From Methylobacter sp. (lineage in GTDB: Bacteria; Pseudomonadota; Gammaproteobacteria; Methylococcales; Methylomonadaceae), in NCBI GenBank assembly GCA_030655535.1, contig JAURVK010000010.1:1-61907 (forward strand): a stretch of DNA of 61,907 nt, read 5' to 3'. The number at the start of each line of letters is the position of its first letter. Positions within the stretch are counted from its first letter, which is position 1. The notes below the pieces were generated by a model. That model made no database searches and was not told the DNA's origin. It worked only from the letters and a program-made list of their open reading frames with translations. A program made the position numbers and the translations under genes. Shown here in pieces: positions 159 to 7,455 of this stretch.

Positions 159-1895
159 ATGGCATATGAATCGTTGTTAACCGTTTTGCAAGAAAGGCAG
201 AAACTTTCTGTTGCAGAATTGAAAAAAGTCGAGCGCGTGCAAAAAACATCGGTCTCGGAAACTGTGCCGCAGTTGCTGGTTAAGCTTGGCTTGTGTTCGG
301 AGTTGGATGTGGCCGACGCTTTTGTTGAATCGGGCCGGTTTGAAAAAGTGACACCGGATCAATATCCGCTGGAAATGCAATTGCCGGAAACCGTGCCGTT
401 GCGGTTTCTAAAAAACTATCATGTCATCGGTTTGAGTCGCAATGACGATATTACCGTTGCCCTGATGGACCCCGAAGACCGGTTTGTGATTGATGCGTTA
501 AAACTGGCGACCGGAAAAAACATTATCTCCAAAGTCGGCCTGCTTTCGGAAATCGATGCGGCGCTGGAAGTGCAGTATGGCGAAGGCCGTTCGCAAATGG
601 ATAAACTCGTTGACGATCTGAGTGTCGATGATCTGGGCGAGGAAGATCTGGAGCATTTAAAAGATCTGGCCAGTGAAGCGCCGGTCATCAAAATGGTCAA
701 TCTGATCATGCAGCGGGCGATTGAAACCCGGGCCTCGGACATTCATATTGAGCCTTTCGAGCAATCCCTAAAAGTCAGGTTACGCGTCGATGGCGTGTTG
801 AAAGATATTGACGCGCCTTCGGTCAAATCCACCGCAGCAGTGATTTCGCGCATCAAGATCATGGCCAAGCTGAACATCGCCGAACGCCGCCTGCCGCAGG
901 ATGGCCGCATCAAGGTGCAAATGTTGGGTAAAGAGCTGGATTTACGGGTTTCGACGATACCGACGATGTACGGCGAAAGCGTGGTGATCCGCTTGCTGGA
1001 CAAGGAAAATACCGTGCTGGATTTTGCCGCATTGGGTTTTTCAGGAAAACATTTACAGCAGTTTATCGATGTACTGGCTCAGCCGCACGGCATTATCCTG
1101 ATTACCGGTCCTACGGGTAGCGGTAAATCCACCACGATGTATGCCGCGCTAAAACAGCTCAACACCTCCGAGCGAAAAATCATTACCGTTGAAGATCCGG
1201 TCGAATACCAGATGGACGGAGTCAATCAGATTCAGGCAAAACCGCAAATAGGCCTGACCTTTGCGTCGGCGTTGCGTTCTATCGTGCGCCAGGATCCCGA
1301 TGTGATCATGATCGGTGAAATGCGCGATCTGGAAACGGCAAGAATCGCCGTGCAATCTGCGCTAACCGGGCATTTGGTGTTGTCGACGCTGCATACCAAC
1401 GACGCCGCCGGCGGTGTCACCCGATTGCTGGATATGGGCCTCGAAGAATATCTGCTCACTTCCACCGTCAACGGCATCTTGGCGCAACGTCTGGTAAGAA
1501 AGCTGTGTCCTGAATGCAAGCAACGCTATACGCCGACCCCGGACATTGTCGACGGCATGAGGCTACGACGGTTTGCGTCGGGTATCGCCAAGGATGGTGT
1601 GTATGCCGCAAGCCAGTCGGGAACTGGCGCGGCCGGCGATATTGTTTTATACAAACCGGTCGGCTGCGCGTCTTGCGGCGGCTTGGGTTATCGTGGACGG
1701 TTGGCGATTATCGAATTTTTGCAAATGACCGATCCTCTGCGTAAATTGATTATGGCGCATGAAGAAGCCGGAGCCATTCAGCGGCTTGCTATTGAAGAAG
1801 GCATGACCACGATGTATGAAAACGGCCTGATTAAAGCCCTGCAAGGGATTACCACCCTGGAAGAAGTGCTGCGGGTAACTTCAGCGGAGTCCTAA
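159..1895 (+). CDS. gspE: Type II secretion system ATPase GspE
   Basis: Walker A GPTGSGKSTT, EDPVEYQ, IGEMRDLETA, GHLVLSTLHTNDA, CPEC...CASC zinc motif; first gene of T2SS operon. Confidence 0.97.
   Translation: MAYESLLTVLQERQKLSVAELKKVERVQKTSVSETVPQLLVKLGLCSELDVADAFVESGRFEKVTPDQYPLEMQLPETVPLRFLKNYHVIGLSRNDDITVALMDPEDRFVIDALKLATGKNIISKVGLLSEIDAALEVQYGEGRSQMDKLVDDLSVDDLGEEDLEHLKDLASEAPVIKMVNLIMQRAIETRASDIHIEPFEQSLKVRLRVDGVLKDIDAPSVKSTAAVISRIKIMAKLNIAERRLPQDGRIKVQMLGKELDLRVSTIPTMYGESVVIRLLDKENTVLDFAALGFSGKHLQQFIDVLAQPHGIILITGPTGSGKSTTMYAALKQLNTSERKIITVEDPVEYQMDGVNQIQAKPQIGLTFASALRSIVRQDPDVIMIGEMRDLETARIAVQSALTGHLVLSTLHTNDAAGGVTRLLDMGLEEYLLTSTVNGILAQRLVRKLCPECKQRYTPTPDIVDGMRLRRFASGIAKDGVYAASQSGTGAAGDIVLYKPVGCASCGGLGYRGRLAIIEFLQMTDPLRKLIMAHEEAGAIQRLAIEEGMTTMYENGLIKALQGITTLEEVLRVTSAES
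1584..1633 (+). repeat. In-frame palindromic insertion element in gspE (encodes IAKDGVYAASQSGTGAA)
   Basis: 48/50 nt identical to 6445-6494 in gspL; hairpin GCCGC-AA-GCCAGT-CGGGA-ACTGGC-GCGGC. Confidence 0.8.
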
Positions 1896-1903
1896 TAATA
1901 CCT

Positions 1904-1961
1904 GTGGGGGCGACTTTAGTCGCCCTTTGACTGACCGGGCGACTAAAGGCGCCCCTCACAA
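1904..1961. repeat. REP/BIME-like inverted pair TGTGGGGGCGACTTTAGTCGCCC...GGGCGACTAAAGGCGCCCCTCACA
   Basis: Palindromic arms; related copies at 26743, 37815 and 53960. Confidence 0.75.
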
Positions 1962-1970
1962 AATGAATTT

Positions 1971-3188
1971 ATGACTTTATTTGCCTATAAAGCGGTTAAT
2001 AGTCTGGGCGAAACCGAAGAGGACGTCAGGGACGCGGTTGATGAACAGCAGTTGATTGCGACTTTGCAGACGGAAGGCTATATCCCTATTCGCGTAGTAC
2101 CGGCCAGCGCCAAATCGTTTCTGGGCTTAAGACTGGGCATCAAGCAAAGCAAATTATCGCAAAAAGACATCGCTTTGTTCACCGGAGAATTGGCAACCTT
2201 GCTGGAGTCCGGCTTGCCGTTGGATAAATCCCTGCTGGTGTTGATCGACTTGACTGAAGACAATGAACGGGTGAGCAAGTTGATCGGCCGGGTTCTGGAG
2301 AAAGTAAAAAGCGGATCTACGCTGGCCAATGCGTTGGAAAAACAGTCCGGTATTTTCAGCAAGTTTTATCTGAATATGATCCGCGCCGGTGAGGCGGGCG
2401 GCAGTCTGGGCGAAGTATTGACGCGCTTGTCCGACTATCTGGAGCGCTCTCGGGAATTAAAAGAGACGGTCAGCACCGCGTTGATATACCCTGCCATTTT
2501 GCTGATTATGTCGCTGGCCTCGCTTTTTGTGATGCTGACCTTCGTGGTGCCGCAGTTTTCCGAGATGTTTGAAAGCGCGGGCAAGGCGCTGCCGGTATCG
2601 ACCCAGATCGTGGTGGGGCTGGCAAACTGGCTGCAAAGCTATTGGTGGATGCTGGCTTTGGGCATTGTCTTCATCACCGCTTATATGAATCTTCAGATGG
2701 CCGATCCGGTCAAAAAGAAGGTCTGGGACGGCCGTTTTTTGAAACTGCCGCTGGCCGGGACGATTATTTTGCACAAGGAAACCGCCAACATCAGCCGCAC
2801 GCTGGGCACTTTATTGGGTAATGGCGTTTCGATACTGGCGGCTCTGGTTATCGTTCGTGAAACGGTAGACAATCTGGTTTTGGCGGCGGCCATTCAGGAT
2901 ACCGAAGAGCAGTTAAAGCAGGGTAAAAACATGTCGGATGCTTTGTTGGAGAAAGGCATATTTCCCAAAATGGCCATGCAAATGATAAAAATGGGCGAAG
3001 AAACCGGACGTCTGGAAGAAATGTTGTTGCGGGTGGCGACTATTTACGATAAACAGCTCAGGGTGTCAATACAGCGTATGCTGGCATTGCTGGAACCGGC
3101 ATTGATAATTACCTTAGGCCTGATGATTGCGGGCATCATCGTGTCGATTTTGCTGGCTATCCTGAGCGTTAATGATTTGGCTTTTTAA
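1971..3188 (+). CDS. gspF: Type II secretion inner-membrane protein GspF
   Basis: GspF/PilC family: FTGELATLLESGLPLDKSL, GEAGG, KMGEETGRLEEML; operon position. Confidence 0.96.
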   Translation: MTLFAYKAVNSLGETEEDVRDAVDEQQLIATLQTEGYIPIRVVPASAKSFLGLRLGIKQSKLSQKDIALFTGELATLLESGLPLDKSLLVLIDLTEDNERVSKLIGRVLEKVKSGSTLANALEKQSGIFSKFYLNMIRAGEAGGSLGEVLTRLSDYLERSRELKETVSTALIYPAILLIMSLASLFVMLTFVVPQFSEMFESAGKALPVSTQIVVGLANWLQSYWWMLALGIVFITAYMNLQMADPVKKKVWDGRFLKLPLAGTIILHKETANISRTLGTLLGNGVSILAALVIVRETVDNLVLAAAIQDTEEQLKQGKNMSDALLEKGIFPKMAMQMIKMGEETGRLEEMLLRVATIYDKQLRVSIQRMLALLEPALIITLGLMIAGIIVSILLAILSVNDLAF

Positions 3189-3203
3189 ATATAGGAATGC
3201 ATT

Positions 3204-3659
3204 ATGAAAGAGGTAACGAGGTTCAAGGTTCAAGGTGCAAGGTTCAAGGCGCGTCTTCGCGGTTTCACCCTGCTTGAATTATTGGTGGTGTTGGGCATTA
3301 TTGCGATGCTGGCCGGGATCGTCGGGCCGCAGGTCATGAAGCACATGGGCGAATCCAAAACCAAAGCGGCCAAGGTGCAGATTGAAGATCTGGCGGCCGC
3401 TCTGGATATGTATAAGCTGGATTTGGGCAGCTATCCGACTTCCGAGCAAGGCTTGATGGCCTTGATTGAATCGCCCGATAACGCTAGGCGCTGGAATGGC
3501 CCTTATTTGCGTAAATCCAAAATGCCGTTGGATCCATGGCAACAGGAATATCGTTATGTTGCTCCCGGCGAGCACGGGAAATTCGATTTGTATACCTTAG
3601 GGGCGGACGGCAAGGAAGGCGGTGAAGGCGAAGATCAGGATATTGCTAGTTGGGAGTGA
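3204..3659 (+). CDS. gspG: Major pseudopilin GspG
   Basis: RGFTLLELLVVLGIIAMLAGIVGPQVM prepilin motif; LDLGSYPTSEQGL, WNGPYL. Confidence 0.97.
   Translation: MKEVTRFKVQGARFKARLRGFTLLELLVVLGIIAMLAGIVGPQVMKHMGESKTKAAKVQIEDLAAALDMYKLDLGSYPTSEQGLMALIESPDNARRWNGPYLRKSKMPLDPWQQEYRYVAPGEHGKFDLYTLGADGKEGGEGEDQDIASWE
3221..3248 (+). repeat. Heptanucleotide tandem repeat (GTTCAAG/GTGCAAG x4) in gspG leader
   Basis: GTTCAAG GTTCAAG GTGCAAG GTTCAAG read directly. Confidence 0.9.
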
Positions 3660-3667
3660 TTTATGAG

Positions 3668-3709
3668 GGGCAAGGTTAAAGGTGCAAGGTAAAAGGCAAA
3701 AAGCGAAAG
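3668..3709 (+). repeat. Degenerate heptanucleotide tandem repeat (6 units) at gspH start
   Basis: GGGCAAG GTTAAAG GTGCAAG GTAAAAG GCAAAAA GCGAAAG. Confidence 0.75.
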
Positions 3710-4152
3710 GAAAATCGCAGCGCGGCTTTACCTTGCTGGAGTTGGTCGTGGTGCTTTTTGTCGTGGTGCTGGGTTTTTCCGTCATCGGTCTTAATCTGTC
3801 GTCAGGCAGTGATTCCACCGAAATCAAAGCGGCGGCTAGGGATATAGTCTCGGCGCTACGTTATGCCAGAGGTCAGGCTTTAATGACTCATCAGGAAGCC
3901 ACGGTTGCTGTTGATCTTGGTGGCAACAGCTACACGGTCAGCGGTAGGGACAAGCTTTATAAAATACCCGAGACTATCGATATCACCGTGGTGACAGCGC
4001 AAACTGAATTGGTTGGAGAAGGGGCGGCCAACATTCGTTTTTTTGCCGATGGTTCCTCAACCGGCGGAAGAATTACGCTGGAGCGAGGCAATGTATCGTG
4101 GAAAATCGATATAAACTGGTTAACCGGGCAGATCGAGCTTGAAAGCAAATAA
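3682..4152 (+). CDS. gspH: Minor pseudopilin GspH (GTG start)
   Basis: QRGFTLLELVVVLFVVVLGFSVIGLNLS; position between gspG and gspI. Confidence 0.9.
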   Translation: MQGKRQKAKGKSQRGFTLLELVVVLFVVVLGFSVIGLNLSSGSDSTEIKAAARDIVSALRYARGQALMTHQEATVAVDLGGNSYTVSGRDKLYKIPETIDITVVTAQTELVGEGAANIRFFADGSSTGGRITLERGNVSWKIDINWLTGQIELESK

Positions 4153-4549
4153 ACAGCGCGGCTTTTCTTTACTGGAAATCCTGATTGCGTTTTCAATCCT
4201 GGCGCTTTCACTCGGGATTTTGCTGAAGATATTTTCTGCCGGTGTTAATACCGCCGGTGTTGCCGAGGAATATACCGCCGCCGTGCAAATTGCCGAATCG
4301 TTAATGGCCAAAACCGGTGTAGAATCGCGCTTGCAGCCGAATGAAGCTACCGGCCTGGAAAATGAAAAATACCATTGGCGGCTGTCGGTCAGTCCATTTC
4401 AATTCACGGCTGAGAATTTGGATGTCACGACTATAGCGGCAGAGCTTTTTAAGGTTACGGTTACGGTAAGCTGGGGCGATCATAATGCCCGCGTCGATCG
4501 CAGGCAGGTTGAGTTAATTACCTTAAAGCTGGTTAATAAAGCGTCATGA
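4139..4549 (+). CDS. gspI: Minor pseudopilin GspI
   Basis: QRGFSLLEILIAFSILALSLGILL; operon position. Confidence 0.93.
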   Translation: MKANKQRGFSLLEILIAFSILALSLGILLKIFSAGVNTAGVAEEYTAAVQIAESLMAKTGVESRLQPNEATGLENEKYHWRLSVSPFQFTAENLDVTTIAAELFKVTVTVSWGDHNARVDRRQVELITLKLVNKAS

Positions 4550-5301
4550 GGAAAGCTCGGATTCAAGGTTCAAGGTGCAAGGTGCAAGGTTTAATATGCC
4601 AGCGGGGCTTTACGCTGATTGAAGTTTTGATAGCCATGACGCTATTAAGTATCATGGTGGTGTTATTGTTCAGCAGCTTGAGAATTTGCGCCAAAAGTTG
4701 GGAGCAGGGAGAAAACAAGATAGCCGAGGTGAATGAAGCCGCAGTCGTTTATAACTTTTTTCAGCGGCATTTATCCTCGGCCATTCCTTTATGGAACGAT
4801 TTTACCGCCAGGGATGGTGGGTATGCCGCAAGCCTGCCGGGAATGATTGCGACGACTGAAAACAAGGATAAAACTTTCTCTTTCCAGGGCAAAAAACAGT
4901 CCTTGCAGTTTGTCTCGGTTTTCCCGGCAAGTGCCAGGAGAACAGGTATGCAGCTGTTTTCAATAGAACCTCGGCAACAAGATGGCGAGCAGGATATTAA
5001 GGTGACTTTAACGCCGTTTTATCCGGTGGCCGAGGGTGAAGAATGGCATCGGGAAGAGGTGGTTTTATTAAGAGATGTCAGTAATTTTACGTTGGCTTAT
5101 TTTGGTGTTGATGATTCAGGCGAAGGGACTTGGCAGGATGAATGGCTGGAAAAAGACGCTCAACCCCGATTGGTCAAAATCAGTATCAATACTGGCAATG
5201 GCGTTTATTGGCCGGACATGATCATAGAGCTTAAAGTTGCAGGCGCTGGAATTGGAACCGATACGGCAAATGGTGCCGTATCGGCAGAGAATAGCGATTG
5301 A
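4546..5301 (+). CDS. gspJ: Minor pseudopilin GspJ
   Basis: CQRGFTLIEVLIAMTLLSIMVVLLFSSLR; operon position. Confidence 0.93.
   Translation: MRKARIQGSRCKVQGLICQRGFTLIEVLIAMTLLSIMVVLLFSSLRICAKSWEQGENKIAEVNEAAVVYNFFQRHLSSAIPLWNDFTARDGGYAASLPGMIATTENKDKTFSFQGKKQSLQFVSVFPASARRTGMQLFSIEPRQQDGEQDIKVTLTPFYPVAEGEEWHREEVVLLRDVSNFTLAYFGVDDSGEGTWQDEWLEKDAQPRLVKISINTGNGVYWPDMIIELKVAGAGIGTDTANGAVSAENSD
4561..4588 (+). repeat. Heptanucleotide tandem repeat (4 units) in gspJ leader
   Basis: ATTCAAG GTTCAAG GTGCAAG GTGCAAG. Confidence 0.9.
4804..4850 (+). repeat. Degenerate copy of the gspE/gspL in-frame element in gspJ
   Basis: ACCGCCAGGGATGGTGGGTATGCCGCAAGCCTGCCGGGAATG; encodes TARDGGYAASLPGM. Confidence 0.6.
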
Positions 5302-6302
5302 TCAGGCTAAAGGGCTTCGCCCTGGTTCTGGTTTTATGGGTGTTGAGCCTGCTAACCGTCATGGCCGGGAGTTTTGCTCTGAGTATGCGGCGGGAGGCGG
5401 CCATTGTGACCGGCAGCAGCACGAATGCTCAGGCCATGGCTGTTGCAGAATCGGGACTGGCGGTTGCCGAGCTGATGTTATTGAATCCAAATCAGCTAAA
5501 ACGCTGGCATACCGACGGCAGTATTTACCAAATTGATTATGCGGAGTCAAAAGTCCGAATTCGGTTGTTAGCTGAGACCGGTAAGGTGGATATAAACAGC
5601 GCGGATCAGATACTGCTGCAAGGGCTTATGGCTTACGCACCGGTGGAGACCGAGTTACAAACCAAGCTGGTCAATTCGATTCTCGATTGGCGCGATGCGG
5701 ATGATCTGGTGCGCATAGAGGGCGCGGAGAAAAAAGACTATAAAGAGGCGGGATTAAGTTACCGGCCTCGCAACCGGCCGTTTCAGTCTATTGAGGAATT
5801 ACAGTTGGTATTGGGCATGGATGAACAGGTCTTTAAGTGGCTTGAAAGCTTGGTCACGGTCTACTCGGGACAGCCCAAGGTTGATTTGACTCAGGCAGCC
5901 AAAGAAGTTTTGCAGGTGTTGCCGGAAATAGATGCCGGATTAATAGACGGCTATATTGCAGCCCGGCGGGAAAGCGCGATAAACGGCTTGCCGGCCCCGG
6001 CAGTTCCGGTAGTCTCTAATCCAGGCATGGCGGCCGGGCAAACGGGTCAGAGCATGCCCGTAACAGCTGTCAATGACGGGGCAGGGCAAAAAGGTGCGAT
6101 CATGGTTGTCACCGAAGCACGGTTGGATGATGGTACAACGGCCGTCATCAAGGCGCTGATAAAAAAATCGGATAGTCAGGTGTCGACGCCGTTTCAGGTT
6201 TTGAAATGGCAGCGCAATGCCGGCGACGATGGTTCATTATTTACAGACGAAAAAGATGATTTACTAGTGGGACAATATGCCGAACCTGAATTCAACAATT
6301 AA
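5298..6302 (+). CDS. gspK: Type II secretion minor pseudopilin GspK
   Basis: KGFALVLVLWVLSLLTVMAGSFALSMRREA, DINSADQILLQGL, operon position. Confidence 0.94.
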   Translation: MIRLKGFALVLVLWVLSLLTVMAGSFALSMRREAAIVTGSSTNAQAMAVAESGLAVAELMLLNPNQLKRWHTDGSIYQIDYAESKVRIRLLAETGKVDINSADQILLQGLMAYAPVETELQTKLVNSILDWRDADDLVRIEGAEKKDYKEAGLSYRPRNRPFQSIEELQLVLGMDEQVFKWLESLVTVYSGQPKVDLTQAAKEVLQVLPEIDAGLIDGYIAARRESAINGLPAPAVPVVSNPGMAAGQTGQSMPVTAVNDGAGQKGAIMVVTEARLDDGTTAVIKALIKKSDSQVSTPFQVLKWQRNAGDDGSLFTDEKDDLLVGQYAEPEFNN

Positions 6303-7455
6303 TCTGGATGTTAAAAAGTTCTTTCGCTGGTGGCTGCGCGAACTTGACTTTCTGGTGCCTGAAAAAATCAGGCAGCTGGTTAACGAGAAACAGGGTTTCA
6401 TTATCGTTCGTCCCGAAGGCAACCGGTTGGCGCTGACTTATGTTATCGCCAGGGAAGGTGTGTATGCCGCAAGCCAGTCGGGAACTGGCGCGGCTGATGG
6501 ACAAATCGAGCCGTTGGCAATACTGGAGCGCAACGCATCGGGCATCGCGCAATATAAAGCCTTGCAGGCCAAAGATGAAAGACTGGCTAAAGCGAATTTA
6601 ATACTCCGGCTAACAGCGCAACAGGCTATTCAAAAGGAACTTGTCCTGCCGGCCGCCGTAAAAGGAAACCTGTCCCAGGTTGTCGCCTATGAACTTGATC
6701 GCTATACGCCGTTTAAGGCGGAGCAGGTTTATTTTGCGGTTAAGCAGCTGGAAGCTGAGCATGAACCGGGGCAAATTCGAGTCATGCTGGTGTTAACGCC
6801 CCGGGAAACGCTTGATACGCTGTATGAAGACATCAAGTCTATGGGCATGTCGCCGTTATTCGTTGATTATGAAGCCACGCCAAATGATCTTGAGCAGCGC
6901 TATGATGCCTACAATTTATTACCCGAATACCTAAGGGAAAAAACCGCCAATACGCCGCGCCTGATTTATTCGGCGCTGATTGCGGCGGTATTTTTACTGC
7001 TGGCTGCGGTGCTGGTATCGCCGGTCTGGTTTGAATATCGGACGGTTAACGCCTTACAGGAAAAAATCGATACCCTAGAAAAGGATGCCAAGGACGTTAA
7101 GGCCTTGCAACTGGAGATCGATGCGATGATAGACGAAACACGACTACTGATAGCCGAGAAAAGTGCGGCTCCGACGGTAGTCGATATGCTGAATAGCTTA
7201 AGCGCGATAATGAAAGACGATACCTGGCTGTCCTATGCGCAATACTCGGACGGGCATCTGCAAATACAGGGCGAGTCGCCGGCCGCTTCGGCATTGATCG
7301 GCGTTCTGGAAGACTCTGAATTGTTTGCCAATGCCCGGTTCGTCTCGCCGGTCACCCAGGATAAAATCAGTAAGCAGGAGCGCTTTCAAATTACCGTTGA
7401 CGTTACCCCGGCAATTGCGTCTGCGCCGACACAGTCGAACGGGAGACGCCAGTGA
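6277..7455 (+). CDS. gspL: Type II secretion protein GspL
   Basis: AELDRYTPF-type cytoplasmic domain (YELDRYTPFKAEQVYF), single TM, operon position. Confidence 0.88.
   Translation: MPNLNSTINLDVKKFFRWWLRELDFLVPEKIRQLVNEKQGFIIVRPEGNRLALTYVIAREGVYAASQSGTGAADGQIEPLAILERNASGIAQYKALQAKDERLAKANLILRLTAQQAIQKELVLPAAVKGNLSQVVAYELDRYTPFKAEQVYFAVKQLEAEHEPGQIRVMLVLTPRETLDTLYEDIKSMGMSPLFVDYEATPNDLEQRYDAYNLLPEYLREKTANTPRLIYSALIAAVFLLLAAVLVSPVWFEYRTVNALQEKIDTLEKDAKDVKALQLEIDAMIDETRLLIAEKSAAPTVVDMLNSLSAIMKDDTWLSYAQYSDGHLQIQGESPAASALIGVLEDSELFANARFVSPVTQDKISKQERFQITVDVTPAIASAPTQSNGRRQ
6445..6494 (+). repeat. In-frame palindromic insertion element in gspL (encodes IAREGVYAASQSGTGAA)
   Basis: 48/50 nt identical to 1584-1633. 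Confidence 0.8.

Follow-up and report, generated by a model that had tools for sequence, protein, structure and literature searches.

Rickettsia palindromic elements (RPEs) are short palindromic repeats of ~150 bp, grouped in ten families, that occur in frame within unrelated open reading frames (ORFs), where they encode a conserved peptide; nearly half of them are genic (PMC10969869). Repetitive extragenic palindromic (REP) sequences with GTAG or CGTC tags are small hairpin repeats, some of which also lie inside ORFs, singly or grouped (PMC3733652). Here we describe a 51-nucleotide, two-hairpin element found in three gsp genes of a 61,907-nucleotide stretch of Methylobacter sp. DNA (contig JAURVK010000010.1, positions 1 to 61,907; hereafter, the window), which is contig C32 of a metagenome-assembled genome of 2.76 Mb in 179 contigs. 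It is very probably a non-autonomous mobile DNA element that inserts whole at the target T^NNNG and is tolerated in ORFs after selection.

All three window copies lie on the forward strand and are read in sense frame 0. The copies in gspE (1584..1634, encoding IAKDGVYAASQSGTGAA; covariance model E 1e-14) and gspL (6445..6495, encoding IAREGVYAASQSGTGAA; E 6e-14) are identical at 48/50 positions over 1584-1633 and 6445-6494, as an earlier reading of the window (the original prediction) had stated. The third, decayed version that it placed in gspJ is likewise present (4804..4854, encoding TARDGGYAASLPGMIAT; E 7e-8), with 39/50 identity to the gspE copy over 4804-4853 and with the pairing of its 3' stem lost. 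Beyond these three, no window position on either strand matches with 22 or fewer mismatches, and a filter-free covariance search of the window returned exactly the gspE, gspL and gspJ copies, the next match having an E-value of 0.7. The host genes, also on the forward strand, are gspE (159..1895; T2SSE domain E 2e-145), gspJ (4546..5301; N_methyl prepilin motif, named from its operon position) and gspL (6277..7455; PilM_2/PilN matches). The insert in GspE falls between the two CxxC pairs, CPEC and CASC, just as had been proposed.

When the gspE copy was used as a BLAST query, it matched about 36 places in the source genome, 33 of them element-like and a few truncated at either end; this count is a lower bound, as copies were gathered by searches. 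The additional copies that the original prediction had proposed to look for exist, nearly all of them within ORFs of unrelated genes. The repeat unit is 51 nt, or 17 codons (ATCGCCAGGGATGGTGTGTATGCCGCAAGCCNGYCGGGARCNGGCGCGGCG), and consists of ATCGCCAGGGATGGTGTGTATGCC, a GC-rich hairpin and a final G. This length is fixed by tandem arrays of two or three copies with a period of exactly 51 nt (contigs C15, C132, C39 and C177), and by filled and empty orthologous sites, which differ by exactly 51 nt. In a pattern scan of named genomes nearly all matches came from Methylobacter, a genus with many copies across its species and with M. tundripaludum SV96 among the carriers. Old copies show sequence drift.

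Comparison of filled and empty sites defines how the element enters DNA. In 37 such comparisons, covering about 18 distinct sites, the flanks are joined with no gain or loss, and none of the 37 shows a target-site duplication; at one site, for example, aaaggctatttt is followed by the 51-nt unit and then acgccc, versus aaaggctatttt joined directly to gcagcc when empty. The empty sites already hold the T in 31 and the G in 33 of the 37 comparisons. Across 97 independent sites, position -1 is T in 96, position -2 is T or A in 88 and position +4 is G in 73, giving the target T^NNNG with insertion 3' of the T, usually within TTT or TAT. Because the element begins with ATCG after this T, its own left junction (T^ATCG) re-creates the target, so that further copies land head-to-tail with a period of 51. 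Some tandem neighbours differ in stem sequence, and such arrays fit repeated separate insertions; the units of the array at locus L007 are identical, and arrays of this kind may be tandem duplications.

Folding of the unit as single-stranded DNA gives two hairpins, one at positions 3-16 and the other at 22-50, with z of about -3 to -4 and GGGA in each loop. In the gspE copy, the 5' hairpin of the consensus fold, CGCCA-(N)GGA-TGGTG, spans 1586..1599 of the forward strand, and the 3' hairpin, GCCGC-AA-GCCAGT-CGGGA-ACTGGC-GCGGC with its AA bulge, spans 1605..1633. The original prediction of a hairpin element of ~50 bp was accurate as to the 3' hairpin, fell short of the 51-nt length and missed the 5' hairpin, CGCCA-GGGA-TGGTG. 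In loop 1, A-N-GGA, the N varies and the GGA hardly changes; loop 2 also keeps GGA, and almost all of 189 copies have GTAT ahead of the 3' hairpin. Among 75 copies, 11 of 16 base pairs change on both sides, with a covariation score of.246 versus.119 for shuffled alignments (0/500), and slid controls likewise score far below the real alignment. Position pair 32-42, for instance, is TA in 55, AT in 51, GC in 13 and CG in 13 of 157 distinct copies, and most of the support for the 5' hairpin comes from pair 4-15, which occurs as GU, GC, UA and AU. Compensatory changes of this sort may arise from selection for the folded structure or from correction templated by the hairpin. Neither the element nor its two-hairpin relatives, described below, matched any family in Rfam.

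Host genes in the source genome include those for RNase R, SufD, TtcA, ComEC, AceE, HemL, RibF, FolP and a CobW-like protein; these names are our reading of the sequences, the Pfam check covering the three window genes. An ORF of at least 200 amino acids crosses 70/91 sites with enough flank and 76% of positions drawn at random from the same loci (p = 0.90); genes are therefore not avoided. Since 51 is a multiple of three and none of the six consensus frames contains a stop (a property of about 7% of shuffles and 1.6% of window 51-mers), a genic insertion would add 17 residues rather than kill the gene. Frame usage (45:0:5:12:2:12) departs strongly from target availability (.228:.081:.184:.217:.175:.116; chi2 68, p 2e-13): sense frame 0 is used 2.6x more than expected, sense frame 1 never, and stop codons are fewest in the frames actually used. 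Fifty of the 76 coding copies are in sense orientation, 45 of these in frame 0 (IARDGVYAASxSGTGAA), and about a third are antisense, where the two frames used encode other peptides (AAPVPD..AAYTPSLAI and ..GIHTIPGD). We read this bias as selection after insertion. The proposal of a selfish, RPE-like repeat tolerated in ORFs gains support from the lack of gene avoidance, the frame filter and the decaying copies, and the element is probably selfish and near-neutral, with no host function. As a separate observation, many hosts at source-genome loci L001-L030 are core or essential-looking genes, which amounts to an unplanned insertion scan of loop tolerance.

We compared gspE and gspL across Methylobacter. 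The 17 residues are present between CPxC and CxxC in 5/20 GspE proteins and absent from 15/20, the insertion being common to the window genome and four other Methylobacter species; in comparison with Vibrio cholerae GspE (PDB 1p9r), the insert loop is an unaligned gap, residues 315 to 331. The proposed check against orthologues gave clean insertions, and neither of the refuting outcomes named in the original prediction, a segment shared by descent with distant genera or a lack of other genomic copies, was seen. On the gspE tree, filled and empty genes form sister pairs (G007/G015, G004/G020 and G011/G021; support each about 1.0), a conflict that implies repeated gain or precise loss, and the pattern could arise by recurrent insertion, precise loss or local recombination. 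In GspL, a single loop holds the element or remnants in several species, at positions that vary slightly, and is empty in most. An AlphaFold prediction of GspE with 20 close orthologues had a mean pLDDT (predicted local distance difference test) of 39 and was not used.

Covariance models place the element in 61/201 genomes of the family, representing 18/29 genera. Genomes with at least 20 copies are nearly all Methylobacter, the single exception, G119, being divergent. The models also detect related two-hairpin units in 51/369 Gammaproteobacteria genomes; model E-values are rough, and most listed matches show the ANGGA...GGA plan. Phages, plasmids and viral contigs gave no match. Methylovulum and the groups g39 and g28 carry the 51-nt form within ORFs as well. 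In nine genomes with relatives, by contrast, only 1/80 copies is crossed by an ORF of at least 200 amino acids, versus 70/91 for the Methylobacter lineage; in G119, contig ends truncate about half of the loci, so that the extragenic test is weaker for this genome, though not for the complete ones. The 120 matches in G119 are mostly 52-nt arrays between genes, and G127 has 50-nt arrays. In some relatives the flanks of the target are palindromic, unlike those in Methylobacter. In the group f119, the upstream gene could be scored for 19 copies, and 18 of these follow it in the same orientation, whereas orientation is mixed in the other genera. By these models, the 51-nt element belongs to a two-hairpin superfamily that spans the class and is mostly extragenic, and forms its genic lineage. 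The idea that a length of 51 alone explains genic spread was dropped, because the f119 units are also 51 nt and yet extragenic.

Several further features of the relatives were recorded. The 2.1-Mb G119 genome has 52-nt arrays at many contig ends (L402-L421, L344, L350 and L364), and these appear nested within another palindrome, GGTGCGTTTG...CCCACGCACC. In G032 and G590 (L434-L452) the two-hairpin unit tips a longer conserved palindrome, such as TTTCGCCATCTG[...]CATGGCGAAA, with flanks complementary over up to 10 bp. Copies at L462, L481 and L401 immediately follow the T-run of putative intrinsic terminators. A superfamily copy at L393 (442-666) lies within a group II intron match, inserted in one loop, and another group II intron is found 0.3 kb from a superfamily copy at L399.

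Two alternative readings would give the insert a role in its host. The strong preference for sense frame 0, where stops are fewest, might mean that the 17-residue peptide is itself selected, as a linker or binding tag, and has spread by recombination between genes. This is highly improbable, since a third of genic copies lie in two antisense frames with different peptides, the stems vary through compensatory changes in the DNA, most orthologues lack the insert and old copies drift; antisense copies in essential genes suffice to refute it largely. A second reading, slightly less improbable but still very unlikely in our judgment, is a mobile element acting on RNA, whose paired GGA-loop hairpins would bind CsrA/RsmA and whose copies would spread or persist by bringing mRNAs under CsrA control. 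The GGA in both loops, with A-N-GGA in loop 1, a CsrA gene in the genome, the 50/76 coding copies in sense orientation and the 18/19 co-oriented downstream copies of f119 all accord with this idea. On the other hand, RNA from the antisense third of genic copies has no GGA loops, orientation is mixed outside f119, the presence of 45/50 sense copies in frame 0 is needless for an RNA function, and no Rfam family matches.

For a mobile DNA element, the mode of movement has to be considered. In its main parts the case is shown: the unit inserts whole, without duplication or deletion, 3' of T and before NNNG. Selection would then retain insertions in tolerable frames and loops, mainly in sense frame 0 and in two antisense frames. 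The mover may act on folded single-stranded DNA; the likeliest of several options, which we favor only tentatively, is an HUH/Y1-type transposase acting in trans and reading the GGGA-loop hairpins, because the lack of duplication, the hairpins near both ends and the T-rich 5' target resemble single-strand transposition. A number of results weigh against such a mover. No Y1 transposase ORF was found in 362 element loci (positive control 36/39), 10 of the 12 Y1 matches in the source genome have no element within 1.5 kb, Y1 counts do not follow element counts (about 21 elements and 1 Y1 each in G010 and G004), and element-rich genomes showed no shared Y1 subfamily. A lagging-strand orientation bias is expected for IS200/IS605 insertion sequences, and copies in M. 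tundripaludum SV96 are oriented 8:8 leading:lagging (n = 16; skew sampled every 200-350 kb). To our knowledge, the +4 G has no explanation in known Y1 systems.

A more specific version, that this is a REP element moved by a TnpA-REP (RAYT, REP-associated tyrosine transposase) with GTAT serving as guide instead of GTAG, we regard as unlikely. The 3' hairpin does have REP architecture (foot tetranucleotide, basal stem, 2-nt bulge, second stem and loop), a published guide rule (PMC8266576) applied to GTAT predicts a cut after AT, in keeping with A/T at -2 and then T at -1, and the source genome has the 12 Y1_Tnp matches. However, the GTAG/CGTC tag is absent, no copy adjoins a Y1 gene (362 element loci and 10 source-genome Y1 loci), -2 is more often T than A, the right end (CG^) misfits the guide rule, and a Y1 subfamily common to element-rich genomes is not apparent. 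Derivation as a miniature inverted-repeat transposable element from a DDE insertion sequence has the least credence of all: the element is short, repeated, hairpin-forming, non-autonomous and able to enter genes, but no terminal inverted repeats span it and the 37 comparisons show no target-site duplication. A broader possibility, less likely than not, is that the superfamily, for which there is no Rfam entry and we found no paper, is moved by some recombinase that targets T^NNNG and leaves no duplication, and that one lineage, in Methylobacter and near genera, went from extragenic to gene-invading, continually adding 17-residue peptides to core proteins. As a mobiliser judged by proximity or presence, RAYT/Y1 was found to be unsupported. 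Locus L154 (1272-2004, source contig C31) encodes a Y1-transposase-like ORF whose N-terminus consists of tandem copies of the peptide NPECKLxLQGRRSLHSNR, perhaps a further repeat translated as protein.

Elsewhere in the window, three neighbouring pseudopilin genes each carry heptamer repeats (AAGGTTC/AAGGTGC)n at the 5' end (3218-3249, 3666-3696 and 4562-4591), with 7 pattern matches versus 0.01 expected; the repeats encode KVQG/RFK-type leader residues directly ahead of the prepilin GFTL motif.

Most of what is known of protein-coding palindromes comes from Rickettsia, a genus of obligate intracellular bacteria whose genomes are decaying. An RPE-like phenomenon now appears in free-living methanotrophs, some of them cultivable, such as M. 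tundripaludum SV96. Given precise boundaries and a target motif, together with dozens of filled/empty pairs and extragenic relatives, the movement of such elements becomes testable, as do the way in which an extragenic repeat became tolerable in genes and the effect of a fixed 17-residue insert on core proteins. In practice, domain annotation and structure prediction for Methylobacter proteins need care, since these inserts will mislead both. A literature search outside subscription journals found no published description of the element, and searches with sequence strings gave chance hits.

In relation to known systems, the element resembles IS200/IS605 and its non-autonomous derivatives in carrying a hairpin close to each end and in inserting without duplication on the 3' side of a short, T-rich motif. 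It differs in having no nearby tnpA, an extra +4 G, an 8:8 orientation split in SV96 and hairpins only 1-2 nt from its ends. Similar to REPs, it is a small hairpin repeat that can be intragenic; unlike them, it bears GTAT at the foot of its hairpin, not GTAG/GTGG or CGTC, and whereas REPs are mostly intergenic, the Methylobacter lineage shows no gene avoidance and no RAYT beside its copies. In behaviour, the nearest known kind is the protein-coding palindromic elements of Rickettsia, compared here by description rather than sequence: both are multi-copy palindromic repeats, in frame in unrelated ORFs and clean relative to orthologues, but the Methylobacter unit is 51 nt long, with two hairpins, tandem arrays, a T^NNNG target and a free-living methanotroph host. 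The two-hairpin repeats of ~48-52 nt in other Gammaproteobacteria, found with models built from Methylobacter copies, share its two-hairpin plan with ANGGA and GGA loops, but are nearly all extragenic, often in 50- or 52-nt arrays, and some tip longer palindromes. What appears to be new is this link, drawn by covariance models, to two-hairpin repeats across Gammaproteobacteria, of which the Methylobacter element is a gene-invading lineage.

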